Part shown: positions 26,559 to 33,219 of the stretch, one piece after another
How the letters are laid out: each line of letters opens with the position of its first letter
Position numbering within the stretch: position 1 is the first letter of the stretch
NCBI GenBank assembly: GCA_913063045.1
Contig: CAJXYM010000001.1
Span: 62,001 to 126,000 of the forward strand
Direction of reading: 5' to 3'
DNA length: 64,000 nt
From: an uncultured Flavobacteriales bacterium
GTDB taxonomy: Bacteria > Bacteroidota > Bacteroidia > Flavobacteriales > BACL11
Program-made: the position numbers and the translations under genes
Notes under the pieces: model-generated
Told to the model about the DNA's origin: nothing
What the model saw: only the letters and a program-made list of their open reading frames with translations
Database searches by the model: none

Positions 26559-28664
26559 ATGCGACTTATTAAATTAATAATACTAATCGTACTTTTATTT
26601 AACTTAAGTTGTAATAGTCAAAATGATTTAAAATCAAATATGATTGATAAACATAAATTTACTAATTCTCTTATAAATGAGACAAGTCCTTATCTTTTGC
26701 AGCATGCTCATAATCCTGTTAATTGGTATCCGTGGAACGACCAAACATTAGAGAAAGCAAAAAAAGAAAATAAACTTTTACTGATTAGTGTTGGATATTC
26801 TGCATGTCATTGGTGTCATGTAATGGAGCATGAAAGTTTTGAAGATGAACAGGTTGCTAAGGTGATGAATGATAATTTTATTTGTATAAAAATAGACCGA
26901 GAAGAAAGACCTGATATAGACCAGATTTATATGACGGCAGTACACCTGATGAATCAAAGAGGAGGGTGGCCACTTAATTGTATAGCTCTTCCCGATGGAA
27001 GACCATTTTGGGGAGGCACATATTTTAGAAAAAATGATTGGGTAAAAAAAATCAAAGAAATTGCCAATATATATGCAAATGAGCCTGACAGGGTAATAGA
27101 GTTTAGTAATCGTCTTACTGAAGGTATTCAACAAGTTGAAAGTATCAGTTTAAATAAAGAGAAAGTAGCATTCCCATTTAATGAGTTAAATAAAATGGTT
27201 GAAAATTGGTCTAATTCATTTGATAATATTGAAGGAGGAAGTAAAGGGTCTCCAAAATTCCCAATGCCTAATGCCTATATGTTTTTATTAGACTTTGGTC
27301 ATCTATCAAAAAATAATGATGTCTTAGAGCATGTGCAAATAACATTAGATAAGATGGCTTTTGGAGGGATATATGATCAAATGGGTGGAGGTTTTTCTAG
27401 ATATTCAGTAGATAAGAATTGGAAAGCTCCTCATTTTGAAAAAATGTTATATGATAATGCTCAATTGGTCAGTTTATACTCTAATGCATTTATAAAGTTT
27501 AAAAAACCACTGTATAAAGATGTTGTTTTTGAAACTTTAGATTTTGTTGAAAGAGAGTTAATGTCAAAGGAAGGAGTCTTTTATTCTGCATTAGATGCTG
27601 ATAGTGAAGGAGAAGAAGGTAAGTTTTATGTTTGGTCTAAGCAAGAAATAGAAGAATATATTAAAGATGATCAGGAAATTTTTATGGATTATTACAACAT
27701 TAATAATATTGGGCTTTGGGAGCATGGGAACTATATTCTCTTAAGAAAAAAAACTAAAGATAAGATTGCTAGAAAGTATAATCTATCAATTAATGATTTA
27801 GATAATAAAATAAACAGCTGGAAGGTTTCTTTAAATACAATAAGAGATCAAAGAATAAGGCCTGGACTTGATGATAAATCATTAACATCATGGAATAGTC
27901 TGATGATATCAGGATTTGTTGATGCTTATATGGCTTTTGGGAAAAAAGAACATTTAAGCTTAGCGGTTAAAAGTGCTGATTTTCTTCTTTCTAAACAATT
28001 AAAAAAAGATGGTGGTTTATGGCATTCGTATAAAAATGGACGGTCAACAATTAATGGTTTTTTGGAAGACTATGCTTTAACTATTGAATCTCTAATAAAA
28101 CTTTATGAAGCAACTTTAGATGAAAAATGGTTAATAACTTCTAAGCAACTGGTTGAGTATTCTATAGAAAATTTTTATGATCAGGAAAGTAAGATGTTTT
28201 ATTTTACTTCTAAGAATGACACAAGATTAGTTGCAAGAAAATTAGAAGTTAATGATAATGTGATACCTGCATCTAATTCTGTTTTAGCTAACACGTTGTA
28301 TGATTTAGGTGTATTGTTAGACAATGCTAAATACATGAAAATGGCTTTGACTATTGTAAATAATATTAGGCCGGAAATAAAAAAATACACTTCTGGATAT
28401 GCAAATTATGGTAGATTGATGCTTAAAGAAATTTATCCATTTTATGAAGTTGCTGTAGTTGGTAGTGAAGCAAAGGATAAAATCCTTGGGATTAATAATA
28501 TTTATAATCCTAATAAATTGTTTTTAGGAAGTTTAGCTGAGAGTCCGTTAGAGCTTCTAAAAGATAAGTATGTTAAAGGTAAAACTATGATTTACGTTTG
28601 TGAAGATAATGCATGTCAATTACCAACTCAAAAAATTAGTCAAGCTCAAAAAATGCTTAAGTAA
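26559..28664 (+). CDS. DUF255 thioredoxin-like lipoprotein (YyaL/SSP411 family)
   Basis: The 701-residue protein has a lipoprotein signal (LLFNLSCNS), then an N-terminal thioredoxin-like DUF255 domain beginning [17 protein letters not shown] and containing a CxxC motif in [17 protein letters not shown]. The rest resembles an alpha/alpha six-hairpin toroid (glycosidase-like) domain, with [17 protein letters not shown] and [13 protein letters not shown]. The family is old and widespread (YyaL, SPATA20) but its reaction is not established. Most members I know lack a signal; this one is predicted to sit on the envelope. It closes the gpmI-dipeptidase run and ends 5 bases before the convergent tyrS. 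Confidence 0.85.
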
Positions 28665-30033: not shown

Positions 30034-31038
30034 ATGATTTTTTTAACAGGAGGGACTGGCCTTGTTGGCTCACATGTATTACTTGATCTTTGTCTTAAGG
30101 GCAAAGATGTTTTAGCTCTTAAAAGAGAAAAAAGTAGCTTAGAGATTTGTGAGAAATTATTTTTTAACCATAATAAAATGGATCTTTTTCACAGCATAAG
30201 ATGGTGTATTGGTGATTTAGAAAACACACCTCTTTTAGATGACTATATTTCAGAATGTAATGTCGTTGTTCATGTTGCAGGCTTAGTCTCTTTTCAAAAT
30301 TCTGATAAGCAGAAACTAATAGATGTAAATGTTAATGGGACTGCTAATTTGGTTAATATTTCTTTATCAAACTCTATAGATAAGTTTTTATATGTTAGCT
30401 CTATAGCAACATTAGGAAGAAATTCTACAAAGGAAATTGTTGATGAAGAGAGCTATTTTAAAAATTCAAAAATTGAGAGTAATTATGCTATAAGTAAATA
30501 CCTGGCAGAACAAGAAGTCTGGAGAGCTTCAAATGAAGGTCTTAGTGTCGTTATTGTTAATCCTTCTGTAATTTTAGGTCCTGGAGATTGGAATAGTGGA
30601 AGTTCAAAAATTTTCCAAACAGTTTATAATGGGTTGAAATTCTATACTACTGGAAGTACCGGATTTGTTGATGTAGAAGATGTTGCTAATATTATCGTTA
30701 TGCTTGCTGAACACGAAGTGTCCAATCAACGTTTTATTATTAGTGGTTGTAATGAAACCTATCAGCATTTATTCAATTTAATAGCTGACAGCTTTGATAT
30801 AAAAAGACCAAGTATTAGAGTAACACCTTTGCTTAAAGAAATTGCTTGGAGAGTTGAAAAAATTAGATCTTTTTTAACACAGAGTAAATCCATAATCACT
30901 AAGGAAACTGCTGAAAGCGTCATGAGAAATAGTAAGTTTTCATCACAAAAGATTAAAAAGTTACTAGATTATAATTTTATTGCTTTTGAGAACACTATTA
31001 AAAAAAATTGCAGGAGATACTTAATTGATATTAAGTGA
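30034..31038 (+). CDS. NAD-dependent epimerase/dehydratase (extended SDR)
   Basis: The 334-residue protein has the extended-SDR cofactor loop TGGTGLVGSH at residues 5-14 and the catalytic YAISK near residue 152, preceded by a conserved serine in YVSSIAT. HVAGLVSF and NPSVILGPGDW are typical of the group close to dihydroflavonol 4-reductase and 3-beta-hydroxysteroid dehydrogenase. In Bacteroidota such genes are common next to tyrS or DUF4296 genes, but the substrate is not known to me. The final 18 bases overlap the convergent DUF4296 gene. Confidence 0.85.
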   Translation: MIFLTGGTGLVGSHVLLDLCLKGKDVLALKREKSSLEICEKLFFNHNKMDLFHSIRWCIGDLENTPLLDDYISECNVVVHVAGLVSFQNSDKQKLIDVNVNGTANLVNISLSNSIDKFLYVSSIATLGRNSTKEIVDEESYFKNSKIESNYAISKYLAEQEVWRASNEGLSVVIVNPSVILGPGDWNSGSSKIFQTVYNGLKFYTTGSTGFVDVEDVANIIVMLAEHEVSNQRFIISGCNETYQHLFNLIADSFDIKRPSIRVTPLLKEIAWRVEKIRSFLTQSKSIITKETAESVMRNSKFSSQKIKKLLDYNFIAFENTIKKNCRRYLIDIK

Positions 31039-31368
31039 TTTTTTTTTCTCATTTATTAAACCTTCTATTGCAAGATCATATATTTCATCTAATTCATTAG
31101 AATCTGTGCTATAGAATTTTATAGATTTTTCAAAATCTTCAACTTTTAATTTATATGAATTAAAAATAGAGTCATACTCAACTCTTAGTTGATGTTTTGC
31201 TGTTACATTGTTTTTATTTTTTTGCACTTCATATTTTGCTTCAATTAAATGAATTGATTTAATTAACTCAATAAATTCAATTTTGGATATTACATCATTT
31301 GATTTTGGAGGCTCATTATTACAGCTAAAAAACAATGATATTAATAGAATACTATAAAGAATTTTCAT
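31021..31368 (-). CDS. DUF4296 lipoprotein
   Basis: This small protein (115 residues) has a lipoprotein signal (LISLFFSCNN, lipobox near residue 16) and a helical body containing IHLIEAKYEVQ and YDSIFNSYKLKVEDFEKSIKFY. That arrangement fits DUF4296, a family of small Bacteroidota lipoproteins without a known function. It overlaps the convergent epimerase gene by 18 bases, so both reading frames are used in that stretch. Its promoter has both elements, with the -7 box only 4 bases from the ATG, implying a leaderless mRNA. Confidence 0.8.
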   Translation of the reverse strand: MKILYSILLISLFFSCNNEPPKSNDVISKIEFIELIKSIHLIEAKYEVQKNKNNVTAKHQLRVEYDSIFNSYKLKVEDFEKSIKFYSTDSNELDEIYDLAIEGLINEKKKSLNIN

Positions 31369-31473: not shown

Positions 31474-31481
31474 TACCTTTG
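31474..31481 (+). promoter_or_regulatory. -7 box of the Cys/His-rich lipoprotein gene
   Basis: TACCTTTG matches TAnnTTTG and lies 28 bases before the ATG at 31510. A -33 element at normal distance is not visible; the TTTTGACAAA further upstream (about 31420-31430) is too distant. Confidence 0.5.
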
Positions 31482-31509
31482 ATGTTAGTTAACTAAAAAA
31501 CAATTCATT

Positions 31510-31839
31510 ATGAAAAATTTATTTTATTTATTATTATTAAGTGTATTTATTGCTTGTGGCGGTGGTGAAAATGCAACTGAAGAAACTGCAGTAGAAACTG
31601 CAATAGAAGCTGTAGCTTGTGCTGATGGTTGTCAAAAGGCTTGTTGTTTAGGCTGTAAGGCAACTGAAGGAGATGCAAAATGTATGGTTCTAGCAGATGG
31701 CTCAATGCCTTGTTGTGCTGCAAAAACAGAAGCTGCTTGTTGTTGTGGTGACGCATCATGTGACGGTTCATGTCATGGAGATGCAGAGGCTCAAGAAGCT
31801 GCTCATGGTACTGAAGGTCATGAAGGTCATGATCATTAA
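31510..31839 (+). CDS. Small Cys/His-rich lipoprotein, possible metal binder
   Basis: I do not recognise a family for this 109-residue protein. It begins with a clear lipoprotein signal (LLLLSVFIACGGG), followed by a Glu/Ala/Thr-rich linker. The centre holds 13 cysteines, in ADGCQKACCLGC, MPCCAAK, AACCCGDASC and DGSCHGD, and the tail is histidine-rich (HGTEGHEGHDH). The pattern resembles metallothionein-like or copper/zinc-binding proteins, tethered here to a membrane. It is a stand-alone gene with its own -7 box and a strong hairpin terminator. An alternative is a disulfide-rich structural lipoprotein. Metal binding is inference from composition. Confidence 0.8.
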   Translation: MKNLFYLLLLSVFIACGGGENATEETAVETAIEAVACADGCQKACCLGCKATEGDAKCMVLADGSMPCCAAKTEAACCCGDASCDGSCHGDAEAQEAAHGTEGHEGHDH

Positions 31840-31860
31840 GATCCTTTATTTTTAAATAGA

Positions 31861-31889
31861 AAAAGCATCCTTAGGGATGCTTTTTTTTT
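31861..31889 (+). terminator. Intrinsic terminator, probably bidirectional
   Basis: The sequence AAAAGCATCC TTAG GGATGCTTTT forms a perfect 10-base-pair stem with a 4-base loop, followed by a T-run to 31889. It lies 21 bases after the stop of the Cys/His-rich lipoprotein gene. The reverse strand also gives a T-run after the stem, so it can serve pyrC, whose stop is at 31888-31890. It is the only clear intrinsic terminator I found in the window. Confidence 0.9.
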
Positions 31890-33219
31890 ATCTATTAAAT
31901 TGTAATCTCATTCCCTTTTTTGATTCATTAAAAACACCACCTGAATAGACAATATTTCCATTCACAATTGTTTTTTCAATAGAACCATAAAGAGTTTCTC
32001 CTTCTAGTGGAGACCATTTGCACTTATAGTGGATATTTTTTTTATTTACATCGAACTTCTTATTAATATCAACTAAGATTAGATCAGCAAAATAATTTTC
32101 TCTGATAAACCCTCTTTTTTCTATTTTAAAACATATGGCTGGATGATGACACATTTTCTCAACAACCTTTTCAATTGTTATTTTATTTTCTTTCACAAAC
32201 TTAAGCATAACATTTAAGCCATGTTGAACAAGAGGTCCTCCTGATGGAGCTTTTAAATAGTTGTTTTTCTTTTCATTTAAAGTATGTGGAGCATGATCTG
32301 TAGCTATGACATCTAGTCTATTGTCTAGCAGAGCTTTAAATAACATTTTTTTGTCATTTTCTTTTTTTATTGCTGGATTCCATTTTATAAAAGTACCCTT
32401 CTCTTTATAGCTATTTGAGTCAAAATATAAGTGGTGTATACATACCTCTGCAGTAATTCTTTTTTCAGAAATATGTATATTGTTCTCAAATAATGATAAT
32501 TCTTTTGCTGTCGAAATATGAAAAACATGTAGTCTAGTATTATGTTTTTTTGCTAGTTTAACTGCGAAGCTAGAAGATTTAAAGCATGCCTCTGCACTTC
32601 TGATTTCAGGGTGTAATTCTATTGGAATTTTATCTCCATATTTTTTAATTGCTTCTGAAAGGTTTTTTTCTATTATCTTTTCATCCTCACAATGAACAGC
32701 TACTAGGCATTTTGTTTTTTGAAAAATCTCTTCTAAAACCTTTTTATTATCTACTAGCATATCACCAGTAGATGAACCCATAAATATTTTGATAGCTCCA
32801 ACATTTTTAGGATCTGTCTTTAGTACTTCTTTTATATTGTTATTAGAAACCCCCATAAAAAATGTAAAATTAGCTAATGATTTAGTATCTCCAATTTTAA
32901 ATTTTTCTTCGAGTATTTCTTGTGTTAATGTTTGGGGTATTGTATTTGGCATTTCCATAAATGAGGTAACGCCCCCAGCAACAGCAGATTTGCTTTCGCT
33001 AAGAATATCTGCCTTGTGAGTCAAACCAGGTTCTCGAAAATGTACTTGATCATCAATTAACCCAGGCAACAAGTAAAGCCCTGTTGCGTCTAATATCTTA
33101 TCTGCATTTGTATTTATTTGTGTTGATATTTTTTTAATCAATCCATTTTCAATTAACACATCTGAAAGATAAGATTTCCCTTCGTTAACAATTGTAGCAT
33201 TTTTTATAATTAAACTCAT
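31888..33219 (-). CDS. pyrC: Dihydroorotase (amidohydrolase)
   Basis: Dihydroorotase closes carbamoyl-aspartate to dihydroorotate in pyrimidine synthesis. The metal motifs are DDQVHFREPG near residue 57, VAVHCEDE near 175, HVFHIST near 230, and ATDHAPHT near 305. The 443-residue length and DxxxHFREPG form fit the longer class I-type enzyme. Allantoinase is a close relative, but no purine-degradation genes are nearby. It lies 16 bases behind a GT2 glycosyltransferase gene and shares its transcript. Its stop codon is embedded in the T-run of the terminator. Confidence 0.9.
   Translation of the reverse strand: MSLIIKNATIVNEGKSYLSDVLIENGLIKKISTQINTNADKILDATGLYLLPGLIDDQVHFREPGLTHKADILSESKSAVAGGVTSFMEMPNTIPQTLTQEILEEKFKIGDTKSLANFTFFMGVSNNNIKEVLKTDPKNVGAIKIFMGSSTGDMLVDNKKVLEEIFQKTKCLVAVHCEDEKIIEKNLSEAIKKYGDKIPIELHPEIRSAEACFKSSSFAVKLAKKHNTRLHVFHISTAKELSLFENNIHISEKRITAEVCIHHLYFDSNSYKEKGTFIKWNPAIKKENDKKMLFKALLDNRLDVIATDHAPHTLNEKKNNYLKAPSGGPLVQHGLNVMLKFVKENKITIEKVVEKMCHHPAICFKIEKRGFIRENYFADLILVDINKKFDVNKKNIHYKCKWSPLEGETLYGSIEKTIVNGNIVYSGGVFNESKKGMRLQFNR

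Follow-up and report, generated by a model that had tools for sequence, protein, structure and literature searches.

A cysteine- and histidine-rich lipoprotein in a fixed slot beside pyrC of uncultivated Flavobacteriales and its possible role as a modular metal binder

The window, i.e. the whole 64,000-nucleotide stretch of DNA analysed here, carries on its forward strand a real gene (31510-31839) coding for a small lipoprotein of 109 aa, MKNLFYLLLLSVFIA-C16-GGGENATEETAVETAIEAVACADGCQKACCLGCKATEGDAKCMVLADGSMPCCAAKTEAACCCGDASCDGSCHGDAEAQEAAHGTEGHEGHDH. The gene lies in a slot bordered by a DUF4296 lipoprotein gene and pyrC. Its product has cysteines at positions 16, 37, 41, 45, 46, 49, 58, 68, 69, 77, 78, 79, 84 and 88, thus 14 in total and 13 without the lipid-modified C16, as well as five histidines. 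An earlier note on this DNA had described a 13-cysteine lipoprotein with a histidine tail, and the reading frame, the lipobox cysteine, the 13 further cysteines and the tail are all present. A minus-strand ORF at 31547-31771 was dropped as an antisense shadow within the gene. The features of the locus are as follows.

31021..31368, minus strand: DUF4296 lipoprotein gene, upstream border of the slot (Pfam PF14129, E 3e-10), syntenic in relatives
31474..31481, plus strand: -7 box TACCTTTG of the Bacteroidota TAnnTTTG type, read from the sequence, 28 nt 5' of the ATG
31510..31839, plus strand: Cys/His-rich lipoprotein gene, 109 aa, whose homologs share the genomic slot within the family
31510..31557, plus strand: signal peptide and lipobox FIA-C16, from the sequence pattern
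31558..31617, plus strand: acidic low-complexity linker (residues 17-36), a scaffold part common to most slot lipoproteins
31618..31656, plus strand: module A, CADGCQKACCLGC (residues 37-49)
31654..31716, plus strand: four-Cys core, C49..C58..LADGSMPCC69 (residues 49-69)
31738..31782, plus strand: module C, CCCGDASCDGSCHGD (residues 77-91)
31804..31836, plus strand: histidine tail HGTEGHEGHDH (residues 99-109), the C-terminus, read from the sequence
31858..31887, plus strand: intrinsic terminator, a hairpin plus T-run
31888..33219, minus strand: dihydroorotase-like gene (pyrC, named from sequence), downstream border of the slot, syntenic in relatives

The metallothionein-like composition proposed earlier was borne out. 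Cysteine accounts for 12.8% of the lipoprotein against 1.3% across the window ORFs (binomial P ~3e-10), and this is the highest Cys fraction among 961 ORFs of at least 60 aa, a mechanical set produced in Python that includes some spurious ORFs and covers 1.08 Mb of the 1.37 Mb assembly (79%). The gene is present in one copy in its own genome. The type II signal peptide, MKNLFYLLLLSVFIA-C, ends in a lipobox Cys that is conserved among the slot genes, all lipoboxes being assigned by pattern. The acidic linker behind it is also found in Cys-free slot lipoproteins and in those of family f9. AlphaFold2, run without metal on a nine-row alignment, returned no confident fold (pLDDT 43, pTM 0.19).

The gene forms a transcription unit by itself, with its own -7 box as had been claimed. 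Of 45 family genes, 37 have a TAnnTTTG box no more than 60 nt upstream of the ATG (4% expected from shuffled upstream sequences), with a spacing to the ATG of 21-38 nt, mostly 28-33 nt, and it occurs within the same distance in 12 of 54 window ORFs. The terminator, singled out before as the strongest in the window, does have the lowest folding energy among 37 hairpin-plus-T-run candidates (-15.6 kcal/mol, the next reaching -8.5 kcal/mol), and a terminator is found 3' of 34 of the 45 family genes. The codon use of the lipoprotein gene is ribosomal-protein-like: it ranks first among the 54 window ORFs (z 2.4) and, genome-wide, 4th of 934 by CAI, the reference being the ribosomal operon of one genome, and 25th of 934 by log-ratio. 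These values support the high expression that had been suspected, without proving it. Between the -7 box and the ATG, positions 31485-31496 form a perfect 12-bp palindrome, TTAGTTAACTAA; it is probably due to chance because most relatives have ATTATTAAnCAAA at that place. Rfam matches near the gene were below the gathering scores and overlapped the terminator, and were likewise taken as chance.

The position of the gene is fixed. The order tyrS, epimerase, DUF4296 lipoprotein, one or two small lipoproteins, pyrC, glycosyltransferase and acetyl-CoA synthetase-like gene is constant over the 20 loci inspected, as far as contigs and ORF picking allow (DUF4296, Epimerase and Glycos_transf_2 were named via Pfam; tyrS, pyrC and the synthetase were named from sequence). 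At least one small lipoprotein occupies the slot in all 38 family genomes with a readable pyrC 3' flank, which together hold 45 slot lipoprotein genes of at least 50 aa, a number that could leave out tandem copies lying at contig ends. The window gene combines the position between DUF4296 and pyrC, the lipobox, the acidic linker, the -7 box and the terminator that characterize this slot family; it represents here a gene that keeps its position within an uncultivated Flavobacteriales family. No such lipoprotein gene was seen beside pyrC in most other Flavobacteriales families inspected. Two genomes of family f9 carry a Cys-free acidic lipoprotein in the slot, with a similar box and terminator, and since it is found in this second family the Cys-free acidic scaffold is probably the older form. 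In the neighbourhoods inspected, no metal-transport or metal-sensing gene was found near the slot. Several assemblies break exactly in the slot (G010, G034, G007 on both sides, and G073; contig ends L070/L053, L076, L077, L133 and L141), which suggests tandem near-repeats or population variation there. In G001 (L067:3908-5934), the homolog of another window gene (26559-28664) is split in three pieces, by decay or assembly error.

As anticipated, the lipoprotein belongs to no named family: Pfam and NCBIfam (both up to E 10) and PHROG gave no matching family, and PDB searches gave no credible chain match. All genomes compared are MAGs, with a completeness of 53-99%. Of 60 sampled, 22 gave a match to the full-length query: the window's genome itself, 20 from the same family, some of these aligning over signal peptide and linker alone, and G058, the sole match outside the family and a weak one (E 9e-4). 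A profile of the Cys-core was present in 20 of 52 genomes of the window's family and, across an order-wide draw of 398 genomes, it matched only within that family. On genome contigs the module profile matched nine loci and a single-sequence scan none. Examples of MAGs bearing the core are NP1160, SI048_bin47, UWMA-0274, UWMA-0277, NIOZ-UU86, NAT179 and AH-321-K21, all uncultured Flavobacteriales isolates whose names read as marine. The weak out-of-family matches to a class-wide module A profile that were inspected proved to be unrelated reading frames without lipobox and were rejected. The module C pattern was found in the window only among 396 Bacteroidota genomes, a set in which the module C-bearing members of the window's family are hardly sampled. 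Searches of viral contigs, plasmids and phages gave no relative, so a mobile-element origin is unsupported.

The slot lipoproteins keep the scaffold, made up of signal peptide, lipobox and mostly an acidic linker, along with its signals, and differ in the modules set on it. The four-Cys core (C-x(3-8)-C-x(0-2)-[LV]-x-D-x-S-x(0-2)-CC) is found in 21 and module A (CxxxCxKxCCxGC and variants, always joined to the core) in eight of the 40 genomes of the tree set, which misses a core-bearing gene of G007 on another contig end and A plus core in G010, where the contig ends in the slot. The core cysteines and D-x-S are invariant in alignments A1-A3, and seven Cys are invariant across the eight rows of A3; among relatives that bear modules, no residues are better conserved than the Cys. 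Module C (CCCGDxxCDGSCHGD) was found in nine copies in eight genomes, with a tandem duplicate in G073; all five Cys and HGD are invariant in the nine copies, which vary synonymously (GAT/GAC, GGT/GGA, TCT/TCA and one TGT/TGC). With 6-7 of 45 bases different from the others, the window copy bears no mark of a very recent transfer. His-rich ends, varied in sequence, are present in 21 of the 40 tree-set genomes; many slot proteins join them to Cys modules, and others are His-only versions. In genus g13 (L064:7098-7361, plus strand; L065:8965-9231, minus strand), A plus core is followed by a non-acidic C-terminal part, EALAKGxSLxEFK...C, in place of the His tail, which makes one more module.

The conservation of the cysteines among homologs, on which the earlier reading was made to depend, thus stands for the modules, which keep them strictly, and fails for the whole gene, since such Cys are missing from 16 of the 40 positional orthologs of the tree set. 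Cys modules are missing from about a third of the family genomes, and in several Cys and His are both absent. Nor are the cysteines a fixed feature of the gene at close range: the nearest relatives, the congeners G001 and G002, have a nearly identical N-terminus (MKNLFYLSLLCVFIACGGG) and signal peptide and themselves lack most of the cysteines. Because they carry only the core (4 Cys against 13 in the window), the architecture must have changed inside one genus. On the pyrC tree at least six or seven changes are required per module, a count in which gain and loss are indistinguishable and which rests on a short search with one gene and a number of weakly supported forks. The fixed slot and its changing modules are what is new beyond the earlier reading, whose metallothionein-like interpretation is partly supported overall.

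Module A of the lipoprotein was also found on another membrane protein. In L057 (JAQWRG010000028), a membrane pyrophosphatase ends in a C-terminal tail with the same Cys module, CxxxCxKACCLGCKAT...CLKDHSCC, which follows a GHAH stretch and two further CxxxCxKACC units. The small L057 ORF was rejected as a secreted protein, being the truncated C-terminal end of the pyrophosphatase (L057:1-411). After the last helix (NILIKLTCLIGLVIAPILG...), Flavobacteriales membrane pyrophosphatases (PF03030) differ greatly in their tails, which include acidic, His-bearing, domain-like and Cys/Met-rich kinds (L057, L166, L169, L170, L171, L173, L176). The pyrophosphatase of the window genome has none of these Cys modules, and no second module-bearing case was found in 88 genomes of family f8, seemingly the closest to the L057 pyrophosphatase.

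On balance, we lean towards the window protein being a probably abundant, lipid-anchored and extracytoplasmic metal-binding protein that would act as a thiolate/imidazole buffer. The mature chain would be largely disordered until metal is bound; the Cys thiolates of the core, CxxxCxKxCC and CCCGDxxCDGSCHGD, together with the His tail, could form small clusters with soft or borderline metals at the membrane, the candidates being Cu(I), Zn(II) and perhaps Cd(II). Metal would be buffered or collected outside the cytoplasm, and lineages may tune capacity or metal preference through addition, duplication and loss of modules. As far as sequence goes, the density and pattern of the cysteines favour this reading, as do the invariant core Cys, Asp and Ser and the invariant Cys and HGD of module C amid synonymous variation. 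Cys modules and His tails would give a single scaffold two types of metal ligand, and the L057 tail would provide a second membrane-bound context for the Cys module. The kept -7 box and terminator and the ribosomal-like codon use would agree with an abundant buffer, and the low AlphaFold2 confidence, as expected of a metallothionein-like chain modelled without its ligand, is weak evidence in the same direction. Against the metal buffer stand the lack of metal-transport or metal-sensing genes nearby and of any match to a family of known metal function; moreover, thiols are prone to oxidation outside the cytoplasm. Metal specificity is unreadable from the lipoprotein sequence. Because some members are free of both Cys and His, metal binding is not the whole or the ancestral role of the slot.

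Alternatively, the cysteines could form disulfides, giving a small, compact, disulfide-stabilised lipoprotein of structural or ligand-binding function in which the His tail is incidental. We regard this as unlikely. The extracytoplasmic location given by the lipobox is in its favour, as are the even Cys numbers after the lipid Cys in proteins with core alone (4) or A plus core (8) (G001, G002, G017, G018, G014, G024). However, in most module C proteins this number is odd, 9 or 13, with CC and CCC runs, which would be awkward for a purely disulfide-bonded protein and argues for metal; poly-His tails accompany the Cys modules, and no disulfide family was matched. The scaffold itself could also be what matters, as an abundant acidic envelope lipoprotein serving charge, spacing or packing; the modules would then be ornaments under loose constraint on a tail that drifts fast. 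What is universal is the slot with its small, mostly acidic lipoprotein, and nearly universal are box and terminator, while the modules are not; a Cys-free form occurs in family f9 too, and low-complexity repeats drift easily. Drift, however, would not leave strictly kept Cys and HGD in module C with synonymous changes across distant branches, and we consider this explanation quite unlikely. Recognition from outside, by a phage, predator or competitor binding a surface lipoprotein whose modules are swapped as surface variants, is highly improbable, since the high turnover in a fixed slot among close relatives and the export of many Bacteroidota lipoproteins to the surface (PMC5080379) are outweighed by a mature start, CGGGEN, unlike the export signals K-(D/E)2, SDDDD and SDDFE (PMC5080379), and by modules that repeat the same metal-ligand motifs instead of diverging freely.

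Beyond the single protein, a fixed envelope-lipoprotein locus re-tooled across a family of marine Flavobacteriales by gain, duplication and loss of metal-ligand modules, of which one recurs on a membrane pyrophosphatase tail, might amount to a modular, lipid-anchored, extracytoplasmic metallothionein system that was previously undescribed, a proposal we put forward tentatively and at somewhat less than even chances. If it is true, a probably abundant, membrane-tethered thiol/His metal store would mean a different handling of copper or zinc outside the cytoplasm, relevant to marine bacteria, which can find these metals in short supply or toxic. The slot offers a natural series of forms, some with a His tail and some not, in which the Cys number is 0, 4, 8, 9, 13 or 14 and from which the build-up of metal capacity by modules could be studied. 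It also shows that the Cys-rich form should not be taken as the defining state of the slot gene.

The well-studied bacterial metallothioneins are cytosolic and have no export signal. Like SmtA, BmtA and PmtA, the window protein is small and Cys-rich with some His, has no catalytic domain and probably works via thiolate/imidazole metal clusters. Unlike them, it is without a match to any Pfam model, carries a lipobox signal peptide that makes it membrane-anchored and extracytoplasmic, and is modular, its modules being gained and lost between species. The metal cluster of metallothioneins is enclosed in a zinc-finger-like fold (PMC10612145); AlphaFold2, run without metal on the nine-row alignment, predicted no such fold for the window protein, at a confidence too low to tell the two apart. 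The protein is not filed as a metallothionein because family homology and cytosolic location both fail; in the literature, nothing relevant on anchored or Bacteroidota metallothioneins was found. With the LES surface lipoproteins of Bacteroidota it has in common the lipobox and acidic residues after the +1 Cys. LES motifs just after this Cys are of the K-(D/E)2, Q-A-(D/E)2 or S-D-D type (SDDDD, SDDFE) (PMC5080379); the window protein, in contrast, carries Cys/His metal-ligand modules and its mature start, CGGGENAT, fits no published motif, although the LES of its own family may differ. Surface exposure is unsupported because CGGGEN fits no known export signal (PMC5080379). The L057 PF03030 tail, unlike the window protein in that its module is fused to a multi-helix ion pump without lipid anchor and was found in one instance, shares with it the Cys module itself and nearby His.
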